This document shows positions 6,014 through 24,533 of a stretch of DNA of 64,000 nucleotides, piece after piece. Below the pieces are notes generated by a model. That model was not told where the DNA came from, made no database searches, and was given only the letters and a program-made list of their open reading frames with translations. Numbering within the stretch: the first letter of the stretch is position 1; the number at the start of each line of letters is the position of its first letter. Made by a program: the position numbers and the translations under genes. The stretch is from Corallococcus coralloides DSM 2259 (GTDB lineage Bacteria; Myxococcota; Myxococcia; Myxococcales; Myxococcaceae). Location: the NCBI RefSeq assembly GCF_000255295.1, contig NC_017030.1, positions 7,104,328-7,168,327 of the forward strand, given 5' to 3'.

Positions 6014-8131
<2,118 letters not shown>

Positions 8132-16538: not shown

Positions 16539-17324
16539 ATGAGGATTCGTCACATGGCGGCCCTGCTGGGCTGGCTGCTGCTCTGCGGGTGCCAGTCCGC
16601 GGGCAGCGGACAGCCGCGGCGGGAGTACCGGCAGGCCCTGGATTCCGGCACGAATGCGTGCCGGACCAACCCTGCCTACTGCGCGGTCATGCCCACCCGT
16701 ATCCGCGCGACAGCGCAGGCCGGTGCGTCCGTGGCAGAGGCGCTGAAGGTCATGGATGCAGCGGCCCGAGGCCGCCTGCATGACATCCTGAAGAAGTGCG
16801 CGAACCTGGCGAACGAAGAGGTGAATCTGCGACTCCTCGACGGCAAGACGCCTACGGCGCAGCAGTGCGAGGAGCAGGTTGGGACGGATGCGGCGGGCAA
16901 ACCCATCACCCGGGCCATGCAGTGGGGCCAGGAGAAACACGTGGTAGCCCTTCGCTGCGTCCAGGAGCACCTGTCCGTCGAGCGGCCCGGTGGATTCAGC
17001 CTGGAACAACGGTATGGCTACGACTTGAAGACGGGAGCGCTCCGGTTGATCACCCGCGCCCAAGCGGAAGCGTGGCTTCGGTCCGGACAGGCGGGCCAGC
17101 TTCTGGGCACGCTCATTCCGGATGTCGTCATCCATCTGGGAGAGCCGTTGGAGCCCGAAGCCGCCTTCGACTTCAAGTTTCCGTGCCCTATCAGCAATCC
17201 CGCGAGTTGGAGGCGCTATCCCCGCAACCATCCCTATGAGGGGAAGACGCAAGGTCAGATGTATGAGCAAGCCTTGGGCGTTCGTCCCTGGCTTGTCGTC
17301 CCCATCCATGGGGCATTCCAGTGA
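16539..17324 (+). CDS. lipoprotein toxin candidate with C-terminal PD-(D/E)XK (VRR-NUC-like) nuclease
   Basis: This 261-residue protein starts MRIRH, then a hydrophobic core and lipobox LCGC with lipidated Cys18 and Gln19 at +2, which favours the outer membrane. The middle part is Cys-rich (41, 48, 87, 110, 140). The C-terminus has P194-D195, then D211-F-K213 and a helix with GKTQGQMYEQ (235-244), matching the PD...(D/E)xK...Q layout of VRR-NUC nucleases. The downstream gene starts within its stop codon (GTGA overlap) and belongs to the family that protects against VRR-NUC effectors. A lipidated nuclease with cognate immunity resembles SitA toxins exchanged between myxobacterial outer membranes. 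The nuclease call is motif-based; activity is unproven. Confidence 0.68.
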   Translation: MRIRHMAALLGWLLLCGCQSAGSGQPRREYRQALDSGTNACRTNPAYCAVMPTRIRATAQAGASVAEALKVMDAAARGRLHDILKKCANLANEEVNLRLLDGKTPTAQQCEEQVGTDAAGKPITRAMQWGQEKHVVALRCVQEHLSVERPGGFSLEQRYGYDLKTGALRLITRAQAEAWLRSGQAGQLLGTLIPDVVIHLGEPLEPEAAFDFKFPCPISNPASWRRYPRNHPYEGKTQGQMYEQALGVRPWLVVPIHGAFQ

Positions 17325-18226
17325 CCCGCTCTCATCCCCGCATCCGGATTCGCGCAGGGCATGGAGGCATGTTGCTCCGGGATGGCGTCAGCATTGCCTT
17401 CTACTTGAGGCATTCGCACCAGGACGTCACCCAACGGATTGAACACACCCTCCATGTGTTTCAACAGGCCATCGCCCCGGCATCCCTGGCTTGGTATTGC
17501 GACTACGAAGGGGACTTCCACGAACTCGACAGCACCGGGCGCGAGTTCCTCGAGCAGGAATTCCATGCCCCCCACTTCGCCTATGTCCGACTGGCGGACC
17601 ACATCAACGGCGTGGGCGATTACCAATTCTTCTATGACGGCCAGTGGAGGGAGCAGCCTGATTCCCGTGATGCGGCACGGAGGTTGAGCGCCGTCAGCCT
17701 CTGGCTCCCCACGGAGTTCCTGGAGGCGCAAGGGTCGCATGTCGTCCACGAGCTGGCGTTGAAACTCTCAGCGGACCTGCCGTTTGCCTCCGGGCATGCG
17801 GGACTCGCATTCAATGGCCAGCTCAGTCTCCTGGGTGTCGGCGACTTGATTCATCGCGAACGCCTGCGCCATCCCGGAATGGATGTTCCGGATGAGTCCG
17901 CATCTCATTACCTGGACCAATGCATTCCCGGCGTCCATTGGATGAACTTCCTGGGTCCTCCGGTGCTTACGGAACTGGGCGGTGTGGAGGCCCTTCGTGG
18001 GCGGCTCAAGAATCCTGGCACAACGGTGCAGTCGCTGTCCGGTGGGCGTGCGGTCATCACCCTGGGATGTGAACCTGACGCAGGAGACGTGACACAGAGC
18101 CCAGTGCTCCCGGCATACCGTGAGCTGGCCCGCGTCCTGGAACCGTGGCTGTACTTCCAGGGCGACTCCCGCCCCTGGCGAGACACCGAAGAGCAACGCA
18201 GATGGGAGCGCCGTTTCCTGGACTGA
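17321..18226 (+). CDS. DUF3396 / type VI immunity (TsiV-like) family protein
   Basis: The 301-residue soluble protein with no signal or membrane span is translated from GTG 17321, overlapping the toxin-candidate stop by 4 bp, so the two are translationally coupled. The family pattern is visible: an N-terminal LRDGVSIAFYLRHSH strand-helix, a GVGDYQFFYDG-type block, a central AGLAFN segment and the C-terminal CIPGVHWMNFLGPPVL motif. Proteins of this family (DUF3396) act as cytoplasmic antidotes to VRR-NUC type toxins. The arrangement argues that it neutralises the nuclease encoded just upstream. Assignment rests on remembered family pattern, not on a search. Confidence 0.72.
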   Translation: MTRSHPRIRIRAGHGGMLLRDGVSIAFYLRHSHQDVTQRIEHTLHVFQQAIAPASLAWYCDYEGDFHELDSTGREFLEQEFHAPHFAYVRLADHINGVGDYQFFYDGQWREQPDSRDAARRLSAVSLWLPTEFLEAQGSHVVHELALKLSADLPFASGHAGLAFNGQLSLLGVGDLIHRERLRHPGMDVPDESASHYLDQCIPGVHWMNFLGPPVLTELGGVEALRGRLKNPGTTVQSLSGGRAVITLGCEPDAGDVTQSPVLPAYRELARVLEPWLYFQGDSRPWRDTEEQRRWERRFLD

Positions 18227-18240
18227 GTTGGGATTCAGGC

Positions 18241-19149
18241 TCAGGGGAAGTTGAGGCCACTCCACTGCGCCGTCCGGGCGCCATCCACATCCGTGACGCG
18301 CAGCTGGTAGCCCTCCAGCTCTGCGCTTTTGACATCGAACTCCAGGATCAAGGTCGCCTCAGATTCGGCCGAAATGGGTCCGGTCTGGAAGGGCGGAAAG
18401 GACTGCCACTCCTTTCCCTGCCGGTCCACCAGCACGGCCCTCCCGATGGTCCAAGGCTTCTTGTCGGCCGTCCTCAGTCCCCACTGCACGGCCCGTCGCG
18501 GGCCCGACGTGAACGCCGAACCTCTCATCAGCGTGAGTGAGCACGGGCGCCTGCACTCGATGGACCCCTCTGCTTTCATGGCCCCGATGCCAGGAAGCCG
18601 CGTCGAGGCCGTCAGGAGCCCCCGAAGACCCGTCGGCTCAGGCGCGCTCCCTCCCGAGGAAACACCTTCCTTCCGCAAGCGCTCGATCTCCGCGCGAAGT
18701 TGCTGCACTTCCTGGCGGTACGACTCCGCGGAACGCACCCGTCGGTAGACTTCCACCTGCCGATCCACGGCGCCTGAATCCACCACCAAGGTCAAAGACA
18801 ACCTTGAGGGAAGCGCCGAGCCCGCATCCTTGAAGGGAATGGACAGCTTCAAACTGCTTCCCCCCTGCAAGTCATCGGATGGCACGAGCACGAGAACGGA
18901 GCTGCCCGTGCTCACCCGTGCGAACTGTGCTCGTGAATCCAGGCTCAGTTGGTCCTGCTGGATGTCGGTATCGAAGAGGAGCGTCGTGCTCACCCCAGGC
19001 CCGATGTGGATGGGGCGCGTCCCCACACCGTCCGCTCCCACTTCCATCCGGAGCGTCGCCTCCACCGCATCGTTTCCGACGGGAGGAGCCGCCAATACAT
19101 GGGTCGACCAGAGAAGAACCGGAAGCGCGACGAACAGACAGGAGGGCAC
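18241..19149 (-). CDS. DUF2381 family secreted protein (myxobacterial paralogous family)
   Basis: The 302-residue protein starts at GTG 19149 (GAGGAG ten bases upstream) with a Sec signal ending near HVLAAPP. It has two beta-rich halves joined by a coiled coil rich in Glu/Arg/Leu at about 141-161. The layout (ST..LLFDTDI near residue 50, and a C-terminal domain starting GSIECRRPCSLTL) is that of DUF2381, a family I know only from Myxococcales. DUF2381 genes typically sit beside membrane Ser/Thr kinases, as here (kinase 119 bp upstream on the same strand). Function is unknown; a periplasmic partner or sensor domain for the kinase is a reasonable guess. Confidence 0.78.
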   Translation of the reverse strand: MPSCLFVALPVLLWSTHVLAAPPVGNDAVEATLRMEVGADGVGTRPIHIGPGVSTTLLFDTDIQQDQLSLDSRAQFARVSTGSSVLVLVPSDDLQGGSSLKLSIPFKDAGSALPSRLSLTLVVDSGAVDRQVEVYRRVRSAESYRQEVQQLRAEIERLRKEGVSSGGSAPEPTGLRGLLTASTRLPGIGAMKAEGSIECRRPCSLTLMRGSAFTSGPRRAVQWGLRTADKKPWTIGRAVLVDRQGKEWQSFPPFQTGPISAESEATLILEFDVKSAELEGYQLRVTDVDGARTAQWSGLNFP

Positions 19150-19268
19150 GGTGGGGAGGGCTCCTCGAACCGGGGCAGCAGGAGTTCCCTTCTATCATGA
19201 GGCGTTACGTGCACCTGCCGTTCGCGGATGACTCACCTCCACGAGTAGGCGTCGATGCGGCGAAGCGC

Positions 19269-21146
19269 CTACTCCCTGGGCTCGTAGTACACGTTGAGAC
19301 GCCTGACCGCCAACACACCGTCCAACTGGTTCGGGACCCACCGGGTCGTGGAGGTGGCCGGCGGGAAGTTTGGAAGGTACATAACGTGGCCATATTGACT
19401 GCGATTCTTGTCGAAGTACTCCATGCAAATGGGCACGACCCTCCCGTCAGGTAGGGTGGCCTCCGTGAAGAGCAACCGGGTGATTCCCGGTTCGAACACC
19501 GCGCGGCCCTTCACTTTCGTCCCTATCGGCAAGGCACCGCGCCTCGACCCCTCGTCATGGACGATGCCCTTGAGGGGTCCTTCACGGATCTCCGTCCTGT
19601 TTATCGTATCCTCCGTCAGCCAGAGGCCTTCCCAGGCGATCTGGCCGGACCTCAACTCCTTCATGGCCTCCTTGGCCCCCGCCGGGCACGGTTCGCTGCG
19701 ATCCCTGGGGGTGTTGGCGCTGCCGCCCGCGCACGACGCGCCCACGCAGGCCGCAACGGCTGCTCCAGCGAGCTTCCGCATGACACCGCCGTCCGCTCGC
19801 AGGGGCTTCACGGAGGCGGTCGCAACCTCGGTGGGCACGGGCGGAGTCGGCTCCACCGCAGCGGAAGCACCCGCATCCGGCGAAGACGCCACCGCGAGCA
19901 CGGCGGCATCGGGAAGACTCGGGGTTGGTGTCACGGACGAACTTCCTTTCTCAGACACAGGCGCTACGGCAGGTGGAGGCCGGTCCGGCGTCAGTCGCGC
20001 CAGCCCGAAGATCAAGAAGCCCAGCAGGAGTGCTCCCAGGCCAAGCACCGCGCCGGAACGACGGCGCCGCTTCGGCTCGACGGCCTCCGCGGGTGATGAC
20101 GGTTCCAGGGGCGCTGGCTCACGGACGTGCGCTGTCAGCTCCGTGGAACTCCCAGGGAACTGCGACAGCGACACCACGCCCCGGTCCAGACCGGAAGCAT
20201 CCGGATCCGCCGGGACATCCAGCGAGACCTTCCAGTCCGCGTGGCGCTTGTCCTTCGCCGCGTCCCAGAGTGCCTGCAGCAGCGTCTCCGTCCCCGAGTA
20301 GCGATCCTCGGGACGCTTGGAGAGCAGCCGCATCGCGATGTCCGACAGGCTGGAGGGGACCTTGGGGTTGATGTCCTTTGGCGCTCGCGGCACCACCGCC
20401 TCGATGGCGGGAAGCAATCGTTCGTAGGGAAGGCGTGGGTCGAAGGCGTAGCCATCCGTCAGGCACTCGTAGAGCAGCGCGCCCAGCGCATACAGGTCGC
20501 CTGGGATGCCCGCGTCGAAGTTCGCGCCGGACTTCCAGGAGCCTTCGCGCAGGAAGGTCACGCACTCGGGCGGCAGGAGGTGCGGCGACGCGGGCGCCAC
20601 GCCCACGGTCAGCGTGGAGGCTCCGGGGATGCGCGCCGTGCCCAGGTCGATGAGGATGGGGCGCTCATCCAGCCGGCGGATGAGCAGGTTGTCCGATTTG
20701 AGGTCGCGGTGATGCACGCCCCTGCGGTGGAGATCCGCCACCACCCGCACGACCTCCGTGTAGACGGTCAGCAGGTGCGCGGCGGAGGGCTTCACCCTCC
20801 AGCGCCACTCGTGGAACGTCTCGCCGTCCACGAAGTCGGTGACATGGAAGAGGTAGCCGTCCGGTGGCTCCGGCCAGCGATCCACGGCGTGCACGCGCGG
20901 CAGGTTGGGATGCGGCGCGCACGCGAGCAGCGCCGCCACCTCCCGCGCGATCCGTCCGTTGACGTCCTCTTCATCGCTGGCGTGCTGGTTCGCCGGCCGT
21001 AACGCGAGCTTCAGCGCGTAGACGTGCCCGCCCCGCTCCACCTTGAACACCCGGCCGAAGCCTCCCGCGCCAAGCGTCCCGACGATCCGCCAGGGGCCGA
21101 CGTGGTGACCGACTTCAAGCTGGTCCGGGTGAAGCGGCGTGGTCAT
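19269..21146 (-). CDS. membrane Ser/Thr protein kinase (Hanks type) with unusual C-terminal half
   Basis: A kinase domain fills residues 15-300: glycine loop GAGGFG (26-31), Lys46, catalytic loop HRDLKSDN (146-153) and DLG (167-169) in place of DFG. A juxtamembrane Arg/Lys cluster and one transmembrane segment (about 366-385) follow, then a Pro/Ala/Ser linker. At Met456 a second hydrophobic stretch begins that looks like a full lipoprotein signal (MRKLAGAAVAACVGASC) with a domain of about 150 residues behind it. So this may be a kinase fused to a former lipoprotein gene. Start ATG 21146. It is probably co-transcribed with the DUF2381 gene; phosphorylation targets are unknown. Confidence 0.88.
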   Translation of the reverse strand: MTTPLHPDQLEVGHHVGPWRIVGTLGAGGFGRVFKVERGGHVYALKLALRPANQHASDEEDVNGRIAREVAALLACAPHPNLPRVHAVDRWPEPPDGYLFHVTDFVDGETFHEWRWRVKPSAAHLLTVYTEVVRVVADLHRRGVHHRDLKSDNLLIRRLDERPILIDLGTARIPGASTLTVGVAPASPHLLPPECVTFLREGSWKSGANFDAGIPGDLYALGALLYECLTDGYAFDPRLPYERLLPAIEAVVPRAPKDINPKVPSSLSDIAMRLLSKRPEDRYSGTETLLQALWDAAKDKRHADWKVSLDVPADPDASGLDRGVVSLSQFPGSSTELTAHVREPAPLEPSSPAEAVEPKRRRRSGAVLGLGALLLGFLIFGLARLTPDRPPPAVAPVSEKGSSSVTPTPSLPDAAVLAVASSPDAGASAAVEPTPPVPTEVATASVKPLRADGGVMRKLAGAAVAACVGASCAGGSANTPRDRSEPCPAGAKEAMKELRSGQIAWEGLWLTEDTINRTEIREGPLKGIVHDEGSRRGALPIGTKVKGRAVFEPGITRLLFTEATLPDGRVVPICMEYFDKNRSQYGHVMYLPNFPPATSTTRWVPNQLDGVLAVRRLNVYYEPRE

Positions 21147-21524
21147 GACCGTGACTCAAGCCGTGACACAACCTGGGAGGTGGGGACGACCACCCGGGTT
21201 TTCAGGACCGCCGAGGGCGCCTTCCCTGCCACACCCCACCGCGGAGGTCGGATTCCCCGCAATCCGCGAGCGTGCCCGGCCGATGACGGCGCGGACCCAC
21301 TTGGCGGAACCACCCAGGGAGCGGTGTTCAATGCGGACAACCTCCGGGGTTGACCCTATCTGGCCCTGCGGGGCTGTCACGTTTTTTCGTGACGCAGCAG
21401 GAGGGTCGACCCTGAACGGGCGTCCAACCCGCCAGGCAGCCTGAGGTTCGTGAAACAGGTTTCAGCCCGTCCGGATGTGACAGGGGGCCCTGCCTGGGAT
21501 CGCGTGGGGCCCGTCTCCGGCCAG
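21147..21524. promoter_or_regulatory. intergenic region with nested inverted repeats upstream of the kinase
   Basis: No convincing gene is seen in these 378 bp. The region contains GTCACG (21376-21381) and CGTGAC (21388-21393) separated by six T, with CCTGC (21365-21369) and GCAGG (21397-21401) further out. Two palindromic 11-mers flank it, GGGTTGACCCT (21347-21357) and GGGTCGACCCT (21403-21413), differing at one base. The T-run is inside the loop, so it is not a normal terminator. Position suggests control of the kinase transcript and/or the 3' end of the TfuA gene. Confidence 0.5.
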
Positions 21525-22784
21525 CTATTCGCCTTCGTCGGACGTGTCGTCCGCTTCCGCCAGCGCGCGGGCGGCCTGTTCCCACTGGCCTCCCAATCGC
21601 GCTTCGGAAGCCAGGGCTTCGTCCCAGGAGGGACCATCCGGGAGGAGCCGGGACGCGTGCGTCAAGGCCAGGCGCTCCAGCGCGCGGGCTTCGCACAGGC
21701 GGCGCAGCTCCAGCGCATCGAGCCCGTTCGCGGCGAGGAAGGCCTCACGGCGCGAGGCCCGGACCTTCCGCTCGTTCCACCACTCGGCCTCCTCCGCGGC
21801 GATCTCCTCCTCCGTCGCGTCGAGGCCCAGCGAACGCGCCCAGCCCGCGAGCAGTGCCCGCCGCAGGCCCGCCTCCGCCCAGGCCGCCGCATCGGGCGCG
21901 CCGCGCAGCAGCTCCATCACGCGCCCGGAGTCCACGGCGCGGGAACCCACGCGCGTCATGTCCTCCATCAGGCGCCGGCGCCTCACCAGCGACGAGGGAT
22001 TGCGCCGCGCTCCCGGTTGCATCGGAGGCGCACGGCTCACGAACTCCGCGCCCGCGCGCACGCACTCGATGGCGTCCAGCCGCTTGAGGTCCTCCACTCC
22101 CCCCGCGAACCAGGCGTCCCAGGCTTCGCGCACGGGCCGGGTCCACGCGGGCTCCACGGCCTCGCGGATCCGGGTCCAGGTGCGCTCCTGATAGAAGATG
22201 CCCGCGGCCGCGTCCACCAGGGCCTGTGCCCCCAAACGCCCCAGCACGCGCGCCTTTCGCGCCAGCTCCGCCGCGTGCCGCACGTTCACCAGGGGCACGG
22301 TGAGGGGACGCCAACCGTGTTCGGCGTCCGCGTGCAGCAGCGCCACTTCCGAGTCGTCCACCGCTACGCCGTCGCGATACCAGCCGAAGATGCGGCCCAC
22401 GCCGACCACGCCGTGCTCGGACAGCTCGGCGGCACGCAGCGCGCCCATGCTGCCTCCGCCGAAGACGGCCACTCCGGCCTCCAGCGCCGCGAGCAGTTCG
22501 TGATGCCACACGGACGGCTGCGCCTCGAAGACGCCGTCCACCAGGACCAGTGCGCGGGGCTTGAGCGACAACGCCCGCCACACGTCCCCTTGCCGCGCGG
22601 GAGGCAACACCGTGCACGGCGCGATCCGCCGGGCTTCGGCCGCGGGCAACGAAGGCCCCAGGAACACCACCAGGTCCTCGGACCGGCGCTTCACGCGACT
22701 TCCCTCACGCGCGGACCCGCTCGCGGCATCCGAGACGCCCTGGACCACGGCCCCGGCACCCTTCACACCTGACCGCCGCTTCAC
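21525..22784 (-). CDS. TfuA-like protein, YcaO partner
   Basis: The 419-residue protein's N-terminal half has the TfuA core: VVFLGPSLPAAEA, the VLVDGVFEAQPSVWHHEL segment, and GGGSMGALRAAEL near residue 100. TfuA acts with YcaO to install peptide backbone thioamides, supplying sulfur or presenting substrate. The C-terminal half is helical and charged, longer than a minimal TfuA domain. GTG 22784 overlaps the YcaO stop by 4 bp (GTGA) behind GGAG, which decides the start and shows coupling. No E1-like, protease or transporter gene of a standard RiPP cluster is adjacent. Confidence 0.85.
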   Translation of the reverse strand: MKRRSGVKGAGAVVQGVSDAASGSAREGSRVKRRSEDLVVFLGPSLPAAEARRIAPCTVLPPARQGDVWRALSLKPRALVLVDGVFEAQPSVWHHELLAALEAGVAVFGGGSMGALRAAELSEHGVVGVGRIFGWYRDGVAVDDSEVALLHADAEHGWRPLTVPLVNVRHAAELARKARVLGRLGAQALVDAAAGIFYQERTWTRIREAVEPAWTRPVREAWDAWFAGGVEDLKRLDAIECVRAGAEFVSRAPPMQPGARRNPSSLVRRRRLMEDMTRVGSRAVDSGRVMELLRGAPDAAAWAEAGLRRALLAGWARSLGLDATEEEIAAEEAEWWNERKVRASRREAFLAANGLDALELRRLCEARALERLALTHASRLLPDGPSWDEALASEARLGGQWEQAARALAEADDTSDEGE

Positions 22785-23935
22785 AGGAGCTCCGAGACGC
22801 GCATGCCCGGCACCACGACCTTCCACACGTGCAGCCCGGGCACCGGTGCGTCCAGTGCCACGCCCGCCACCTGTTTGAACCCCGCGCCGTCCAGCAGCGA
22901 CAACACCGTGCGCACCTTCGCCGCCGCGGTCTTCGCTCGCCGGTCCATCGCGTCCGGCATCGCGTCCACCTCGCGACGGGGCCGCACCTCCGATAGGGCT
23001 TGCGCGAACCCCAGCGCCGCCTCGCGGTCCGCCGCCGCCACGTCCTCACGGGCTCCGTGGATGTCCGTCAGCCGCGATTGCGCCGCCTCCAGCAAGGCCT
23101 TCAGCAACGCCTCATCCCGGTCCATCGCGCACGCATAGCCGGCCGTGAGCGGCACCGGCCCTTCGTCCGCGTCCACCAGCACCGCCGCCGCCACGGGCAG
23201 CCCCACCCTCCCGCGCGTCCGGGGCGCGGGCGTCACATCGAAGAGATAGGCCTGAAACCCCTGGGCCTTCAGCGCGTCCCTCAGCGCGGCCGTGCGCGGA
23301 GCCCCGTCCTCCAGCGTCTCCGGCCGCAGCATCCGCCCCACCACGCCCTCCTCCGACCAGCCCTCCGGCAAGGCCCGCGACAGCTGGTCTCGCTCCGTGG
23401 CCTCCAGCAGCGCGTGCAGCAGCGCCGCGTCCGACTCCGGATGCGCCCCGGAGCCATTCGTCGTCCACGCCACCGACACCGGCCCCAGTTCCACCGTCCC
23501 CGCAGGCGGGCAGTACACCCCCTGCGCGGGCACCCAGACCCGCCCGCCCCCGGCCAGCGTCCGCGCCTCGCACCACGAGAGCCGCACCGCCGGCCCCGCG
23601 AGCCTCGGCGCCACCACCGCGCCCGCCGACCCGAGCGACTCCACGCCCCAGACCGTGTCGCCTGTCCGCTCCAGCTCCGTCCGGGAACCCCAGCGCAGCC
23701 GCTCCGGCCGCACCGTCTCCGCCGCCCACAGCTCCGCGGTCTCGAAGAGCGCGCCCCGGGCCGCGGCCTCGAACGTCAGCCCCTTGCCATTACACACCTG
23801 GAGCACGTGCCCACCCGGACGCACCGCGCAGGCGACCTCCACGCCGGTGCGGTCCAGGCCGGTGACGCGGGCAACCCGGGTCACGCCCAGGCCTCGGGCC
23901 AGGGCATCGAGAAAGGCGGGGGAGATGGATTCCAT
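22781..23935 (-). CDS. YcaO-domain ATP-dependent cyclodehydratase/thioamidase
   Basis: The 384-residue protein has YcaO ATP-site helices: GALFETAELWAAE, a central HALLEATERDQL and ALLKALLEAAQSRLT with the E-x-x-Q-x-R pattern. The Pro-rich C-terminal motif of azoline-forming YcaOs (PxPxP) is absent; the chain ends VVVPGMRVSELL, which fits a thioamide-forming rather than azoline-forming type. TfuA is coupled directly downstream. ATG 23935 starts the family's first helix, though an ATG 17 codons upstream is possible. The gene diverges from a peroxiredoxin. The substrate peptide is not in view, so a RiPP precursor elsewhere or a housekeeping protein target are both open. Confidence 0.87.
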   Translation of the reverse strand: MESISPAFLDALARGLGVTRVARVTGLDRTGVEVACAVRPGGHVLQVCNGKGLTFEAAARGALFETAELWAAETVRPERLRWGSRTELERTGDTVWGVESLGSAGAVVAPRLAGPAVRLSWCEARTLAGGGRVWVPAQGVYCPPAGTVELGPVSVAWTTNGSGAHPESDAALLHALLEATERDQLSRALPEGWSEEGVVGRMLRPETLEDGAPRTAALRDALKAQGFQAYLFDVTPAPRTRGRVGLPVAAAVLVDADEGPVPLTAGYACAMDRDEALLKALLEAAQSRLTDIHGAREDVAAADREAALGFAQALSEVRPRREVDAMPDAMDRRAKTAAAKVRTVLSLLDGAGFKQVAGVALDAPVPGLHVWKVVVPGMRVSELL

Positions 23936-24056: not shown

Positions 24057-24533
24057 ATGATTGCCGTCGGAGAACTCGCACCGGACTTCGCAGCGACCGA
24101 CTGCCACGGGCAGACCGTTCGATTGTCGGAGCTGCGAGGCCGGCGCGTCGTGCTCTTCTTCTTCCCCCGCGCCTTCACCGTGGGCTGCACCATCGAGAAC
24201 CGCGCCTTCAGGGACAACCACGAGCGGATCCGCTCGCTGGGCGCGGAACTGGTCGGCGTCTCCGTGGACACGCTCACCACCCAGTGCGACTTCGCCGAAC
24301 AAGAGGGCATCCACTTCGCCCTCCTGGGAGATGACGAACGGCGGATCAGCCGCTCCTGGGGCGTGCTGTGGCCGATCCTCAATATCGACCGGCGCGTCAC
24401 CTTCATCATCGGCGCGGACGGCGTCGTGGAACACGTCATCCACCACGAGGTGCGCGTCTACCGCCACCTGGACGACGTGCTGAAGTACCTCCAGGCCCAC
24501 CCCGCCCCGGGCAGCGACTCCGCCTCCGCCTGA
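24057..24533 (+). CDS. peroxiredoxin, AhpC/TSA-Bcp family
   Basis: The 158-residue thioredoxin-fold protein has the peroxidatic motif PRAFTVGCTIENRAFRD, in which Thr and Cys form the peroxide site at about residues 42-45. Bcp-type enzymes reduce hydrogen peroxide and alkyl peroxides with thioredoxin. A resolving Cys five residues on, as in E. coli Bcp, is absent, so it is probably a 1-Cys enzyme. ATG 24057 is preceded by a TGGAG element. It is divergent from ycaO with 121 bp between. Confidence 0.88.
   Translation: MIAVGELAPDFAATDCHGQTVRLSELRGRRVVLFFFPRAFTVGCTIENRAFRDNHERIRSLGAELVGVSVDTLTTQCDFAEQEGIHFALLGDDERRISRSWGVLWPILNIDRRVTFIIGADGVVEHVIHHEVRVYRHLDDVLKYLQAHPAPGSDSASA

Follow-up and report, generated by a model that had tools for sequence, protein, structure and literature searches.

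The window analysed here is a 64,000-nucleotide stretch of Corallococcus coralloides DSM 2259. It contains two overlapping genes on the minus strand, encoding a YcaO-domain enzyme and a TfuA protein, with a peroxiredoxin gene on one side and a short open reading frame (ORF) on the other:

24057-24533, plus strand: peroxiredoxin (PF00578, 117 bits), divergent from ycaO and 121 bp away from it
22781-23935, minus strand: YcaO-domain enzyme of 384 aa (PF02624, 187.1 bits; cut-off 25.7)
22781-22784, minus strand: GTGA stop/start overlap, ycaO then tfuA, read from the sequence
21525-22784, minus strand: TfuA of 419 aa, with an N-terminal TfuA domain and a helical C-terminal domain (PF07812, 137.3 bits; cut-off 30)
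21156-21380, minus strand: ORF of 74 aa in the 378-bp gap downstream of tfuA, over a conserved element upstream of a kinase gene

The genome consists of one contig of 10,080,619 bases and contains three YcaO genes and one TfuA gene. It also encodes three ThiS-family proteins, which could carry sulphur.

The two genes are closely joined. An earlier note on this DNA had described them as overlapping by GTGA, and this is confirmed at 22781-22784; 31 of 36 related loci permit an in-frame 4-bp overlap of the same kind, ATGA or GTGA (40 loci were supplied, four of which were skipped as they contain no TfuA ORF), so the overlap is not due to chance. At its N-terminus (22695-22784, minus strand) the TfuA gene contains approximately 30 extra codons with a repeated VKRRS in comparison to three related loci (L035-L037); the TfuA of L034 is equal in length. 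Given these extra codons, a second GTG may possibly serve as the start of TfuA. The C-terminus of YcaO reads ...VVVPGMRVSELL and ends in SELL. A PxPxP C-terminus is the motif of azoline-forming cyclodehydratases, and it is absent from this YcaO, as had also been noted before. The SELL ending is shared by 21 of 21 aligned orthologues and by 53 of the 61 complete YcaO ORFs from a one-genome-per-species scan, the species of which overlap with the 21 aligned (nine of the 70 loci scanned had no complete ORF). Five of the other eight end in SGLL, SPLL or TELL, one stops short of the end, and two from Eremiobacterota are wholly different. Six residues (E65, E68, E178, E181, R182 and E283) are invariant in all 21 aligned orthologues. 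The calculated pI of YcaO is 5.59, with a range of 5.35-11.14 over 26 orthologues.

The AlphaFold model of YcaO (pLDDT 89.9) is matched best in the PDB by 6peu and 6pe3, both of which are M. jannaschii YcaO (MJ1094), and a profile search against the M. jannaschii YcaO structures gives an E-value of 4e-25. The PF02624 domain and the fold match to 6pe3/6peu place the protein in the YcaO superfamily. Superimposing residues 36-252 of the TfuA model onto M. acetivorans TfuA (6xp8) gives a Z-score of 28.6 (rmsd 1.9 for 215 aligned residues, 32% identity), which together with the PF07812 domain assigns it to the TfuA family. Both proteins fall below the cut-offs of the McrA-type models TIGR03266 and NF033432 (YcaO 108.2 bits against 365, TfuA 171.4 bits against 235.2), with the core YcaO, the orthologous group to which the window protein belongs, scoring 103-111 bits on the McrA-type model in four orthologues. 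McrA is absent from the window genome, where PF02249 gives no match at E ≤ 0.01; the control finds it in two methanogens. At 1e-3 the EcYcaO model NF040716 does not match the window YcaO, which reaches 79.9 bits on the azoline cyclodehydratase (SagD) model TIGR03604, the cut-off of which is 219.25. From the presence of TfuA, the match to a McrA-type fold and the missing azoline signature, we infer that the pair performs thioamide chemistry.

The C-terminal domain of TfuA (residues about 274-393) is structurally reminiscent of PrsA1 (Z 7.0), the PEB4/Cj1289 entry (Z 6.6) and SurA (Z 6.2), all values below the level trusted alone. Alignment with hhalign against a three-row SurA-type alignment gives a probability of 27.7% (P 6e-4), and a PDB profile search returned no SurA- or PrsA-like match. 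The SurA/PrsA-like nature of the modelled domain is suggestive only. As a C-terminal domain is also found in RiPP-like paralogues (five rows, one truncated), it is not special to the core clade.

To describe the neighbourhood, the positions of YcaO and TfuA in the loci of relatives were set by tblastn. In the core of the family the pair is flanked by peroxiredoxin, sigma/anti-sigma and uvrA genes on one side and by a methylase and a transporter on the other. The distant genera of the family (L058-L071) have a phosphatase-like gene, a metallophosphatase and an AMP ligase, with EF-G in seven loci, and elsewhere in the order the flanks are a sensor kinase, a response regulator and an ABC-F gene (names assigned by eye in both cases). 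In the lineages examined, TfuA is the sole constant neighbour of YcaO wherever the sequence reaches far enough. Peroxiredoxin is a frequent neighbour in the family and is not shown beside the pair in L042, L044, L049 and L050; judged by this gene order, it is outside the ycaO-tfuA unit. In the window, a block encoding a kinase, a DUF2381 protein and a TsiV-like (type VI immunity) protein adjoins the pair (17321-21146), an arrangement found in only some genera.

The earlier note found no precursor gene near the pair, and this is borne out, with the amendment that it did not mention the 74-aa ORF, which exists and was rejected. The comparison of neighbourhoods that it had called for gives the same answer: beside the homologues of this subtype, none of the lineages examined keeps a precursor, and at the loci compared the pair is without the adjacent precursor gene by which a thioamidated RiPP cluster is defined. 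The gaps in the window are 121 bp between YcaO and peroxiredoxin and 378 bp between TfuA and the kinase. In L049 the next genes lie 32 bp upstream and 16 bp downstream, and in L050 54 bp and 38 bp, so there is no room for a precursor in either. A linked precursor, be it the 74-aa ORF or another overlooked short ORF, would be consistent with the conservation of this frame, at 62-87 aa, in all five Corallococcus loci compared and with the match of its first 24 codons to Myxococcus-group loci. However, the conserved start coincides with an element of about 72 nt upstream of the kinase gene (21309-21380, minus strand; GTGACAG...GGTCAACC...GGAGGTT...CCCTGGGTGGTT), which is common to Corallococcus and other kinase-bearing genera, with or without ycaO-tfuA. 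The first 72 nt of the ORF are present upstream of the kinase in all four genomes that have lost the pair (see below), where protein similarity ends at residue 24, and the element has no match in the pair-bearing, kinase-less loci L042, L044 and L046-L052. The element therefore follows the kinase gene, and perhaps represents the promoter or leader of the kinase operon. The frame also stops after 27 codons in L082 (read by eye). As its conserved start goes with the kinase gene and not with the pair, the ORF was rejected as a precursor; a linked precursor is disfavoured, and we regard it as extremely improbable. A conserved 79-aa protein located downstream in several genera (ROF79) was likewise not taken as a precursor because it is seen in only part of the loci. 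By eye it resembles a Rho-binding antiterminator. The search for RiPP leaders covered two families, NHLP and Nif11. Nif11 has no match in the window genome, and NHLP has one weak match, below cut-off, some 5 kb away from another YcaO, of SagD type.

Within the family, 84 of 96 genomes match YcaO, four of them via a 35% identical paralogue alone (G060, G069, G071 and G072), giving 80 genomes with the core YcaO. The core pair is missing from the other 16, some of which are incomplete, and is thus dispensable. At phylum level, the YcaO orthologue profile matches 114 of 195 genomes at E ≤ 1e-30, a count that includes the four paralogue-only genomes and five weak matches (G133, G138, G156, G192 and G194). 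Clear orthologues are spread over four families (f1, f2, f3 and f6), all within the same order, and the two listed matches outside the order are weak. A one-genome-per-species collection yielded 70 YcaO loci in a scan seeded from two conserved motifs, which can miss distant relatives; all but three of these carry a myxobacterial or deltaproteobacterial label, and the three comprise two from Eremiobacterota (27-28% identity) and one filed under Comamonas (68%). The latter, Comamonas sp. KCTC 72670 (L112), is perhaps a mislabelled or contaminated genome.

Distances between the proteins follow those of EF-G over 26 genomes (Mantel r 0.894 for YcaO and 0.893 for TfuA; none of 2000 permutations as high). 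The YcaO tree regains most groups of the EF-G tree, with G015 placed differently and with long, unsure deep branches. Against four Corallococcus genomes, dN/dS is 0.17-0.32 for YcaO and 0.14-0.24 for TfuA; these values are near those of peroxiredoxin (0.16-0.18) and mostly below those of the kinase (0.30-0.42) and the DUF2381 protein (0.38-0.59). On these sequence comparisons, ycaO-tfuA is a vertically inherited core unit of the order under purifying selection. Between the window and other core genera YcaO is 62-72% identical and EF-G 85-90%. This lower conservation means that a very rigid substrate is not evident.

One lineage within the genus g19 lacks the pair. In four genomes both flanks of the locus are intact and ycaO and tfuA are gone with no remnant. 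The EF-G tree groups these four genomes (support 87/63), consistent with one change, and they adjoin G057, which has the pair. All four hold a paralogous YcaO, and in two it is shown with TfuA (L092 and L093).

Three candidate substrates were compared between genomes with and without the pair. For EF-G, not a single column separates 26 pair-bearing from four pair-less genomes, and it was rejected. The EF-G gene (6014-8131) lies downstream of ycaO-tfuA in the window and convergent to it, at about 15 kb; seven of the 40 scanned loci (L060, L062, L064, L065, L066, L069 and L071) show it downstream and convergent as well, at 6-8 kb. Its proximity in the window and the seven distant loci is possibly a trace of old synteny. 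In peroxiredoxin, all four pair-less genomes depart from 17 pair-bearing rows at two columns (R to K, and V to L or M), both conservative changes; it was not retained as a substrate, and in four loci it is not shown near the pair. Myxobacteria have the uL16 loop RMGTGKG, which reads identically in two rows without the pair and five with it, so that the loop is uninformative; none of the eight correctly read rows has a pair-specific change.

The conclusion that the substrate is encoded in trans is well supported by these comparisons. The earlier note had allowed for a substrate encoded elsewhere, and the loci bear this out: no linked precursor is kept, L049 and L050 have no room for one, and the pair is cleanly absent from four genomes. 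Its further suggestion of a cellular protein as the substrate is now the better of the two remaining readings, given order-wide vertical inheritance and the absence of a RiPP-type gene kept beside the pair, and stands as a candidate substrate class only. On this best but unproven reading, the substrate is most likely a conserved cellular protein. We therefore consider it somewhat probable that ycaO-tfuA is a two-gene, translationally coupled thioamidation unit that modifies, in trans, a conserved cellular protein of the Myxococcales. In the chemistry described for the family TfuA supplies sulphide equivalents and YcaO activates a backbone amide with ATP to form a thioamide (PMC5589413; PMC13063428). 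Here, a thiocarboxylated ThiS-type carrier would probably be the source from which TfuA releases sulphide equivalents, and with these YcaO would attack a single backbone amide in the substrate. YcaO would then phosphorylate the oxyanion with ATP and eliminate phosphate to give the thioamide (+15.977 Da, where oxidation adds +15.995). The helical C-terminal domain of TfuA may help to hold the substrate.

The other remaining reading is a RiPP pathway with its precursor encoded elsewhere in the genome, in which the substrate is a short peptide, exported or used as a signal once it has been thioamidated by the pair. RiPP precursors located away from their enzymes do exist. The bacterial TfuA-YcaO products named in one survey are thioamidated RiPPs of Actinobacteria (PMC8120280), and other myxobacteria contain paralogous YcaO-TfuA pairs in a RiPP-like setting, next to a kinase-like protein of very large size and, in L094, to short ORFs. 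Against this, in the lineages examined tfuA alone keeps its place beside ycaO, the leader search gave nothing for Nif11 and only the weak NHLP match near the SagD-type YcaO, and the vertical, order-wide retention of the core YcaO (80 of 96 family genomes) is set against a patchier paralogue (30 of 96). Such a pathway is rather unlikely. A different YcaO chemistry (azoline, amidine or ATP-dependent proteolysis), or loss of the catalytic role, is suggested by the divergence of this YcaO on the McrA-type model, at 108 bits for a cut-off of 365, a cut-off that three RiPP-like paralogues (215-249 bits) also fail to reach. The adjacent and mostly coupled TfuA, the low SagD score, the lack of PxPxP, the six invariant residues and purifying selection all argue against it, and we think it a poor prospect.

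As a special case of a cellular-protein substrate, the target of this TfuA-type YcaO could be uL16 or another ribosomal protein. Thioamidation of uL16 is known in Pseudomonadota, and the loop RMGTGKG occurs in myxobacteria. However, the loop is the same with and without the pair, the EcYcaO model has no match at 1e-3, the pI of 5.59 compares with 4.4 reported for EcYcaO (PMC13063428), and according to the authors of that study suspected uL16 enzymes are without a nearby TfuA. A ribosomal target of this kind is very unlikely.

Thioamidation of a conserved cellular protein in trans has parallels in known systems. The methanogen ycaO-tfuA pair modifies a protein, forming the thioglycine of McrA (PMC5589413), and like the core pair it consists of adjacent genes with ycaO first and a stop/start overlap. 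The myxobacterial pair differs in falling below both NCBIfam cut-offs, in the extra C-terminal domain of its TfuA, in the SELL end of its YcaO and in belonging to a genome without McrA. EcYcaO, which thioamidates uL16 (PMC13063428), is likewise a YcaO without a linked precursor, and a cellular protein as target would be a shared feature. It differs in that it is described as having no TfuA, as acidic and as containing a tetratricopeptide domain, and it belongs to another family model, which is unmatched here. For EcYcaO, a proteome-wide AlphaFold3 screen has already been carried out. In thioamitide and TfuA-related RiPP clusters (PMC6511847; PMC8120280) YcaO and TfuA side by side form the calling rule, which this locus also satisfies; in contrast to such clusters, the pair has no precursor, only tfuA is linked, and it is a vertical core gene unit and not a patchy cluster.

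This bears on how TfuA loci of Corallococcus have been classified. In Malit et al. (PMC8120280) the TfuA gene cluster families that dominate in proteobacteria are treated as putative thioamidated RiPPs, with Corallococcus as one of the genera named, and a TfuA-related cluster is listed in a myxobacterial genome (PMC7321100). Since the window genome has a single TfuA, any entry of this genome in PMC8120280 should be the ycaO-tfuA locus. The evidence argues against filing the core pair as a putative RiPP cluster, and serves as a warning for genome mining that 'TfuA-related cluster' calls can be housekeeping enzymes. In the open-licence literature we found no paper on the pair as a protein-modifying enzyme in myxobacteria. 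According to Rice et al. (PMC13063428), uL16 is the second case of YcaO-catalysed protein thioamidation and more are expected; YcaO-made backbone thioamides are given there as known in two proteins only, McrA and uL16, and that of uL16 was overlooked for decades because +16 Da resembles oxidation. If the preferred reading is true, its target would be only the third protein known with a YcaO-made backbone thioamide. We put at about even the chances of the fuller proposal: that the Myxococcales have a dedicated, ancestral thioamidation of a third cellular protein, McrA and uL16 being the first two, performed by a distinct clade of SELL YcaO enzymes and a TfuA with a chaperone-like substrate-binding domain, with one g19 lineage as a natural deletion usable for target finding. 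A core, precursor-free pair across the order, together with pair-less sister genomes, makes the search for this third protein directly testable. M. xanthus, a soil bacterium, is genetically manipulable, and one record under that name (L116) has the YcaO.

The RiPP-like paralogues form a separate group. A paralogous YcaO (31-36% identity) is present in 30 of the 96 family genomes, and TfuA was found beside it in each of the four genomes checked (L092-L095). These myxobacterial pairs consist of the same two enzymes at about 30-37% identity to the core pair; they differ from it in their patchier distribution, their position beside a large kinase-like gene, the C-terminus of their YcaO and their closer relation to the McrA model, on which three of the paralogous YcaOs score 215-249 bits. 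The kinase-like protein, of about 1150-1190 residues, adjoins the pair in L093-L095. One Corallococcus locus (L094:8457-19863) contains two RiPP-like YcaO-TfuA pairs separated by a large kinase-like gene, with short ORFs upstream, and is a candidate for a true thioamidated RiPP cluster.
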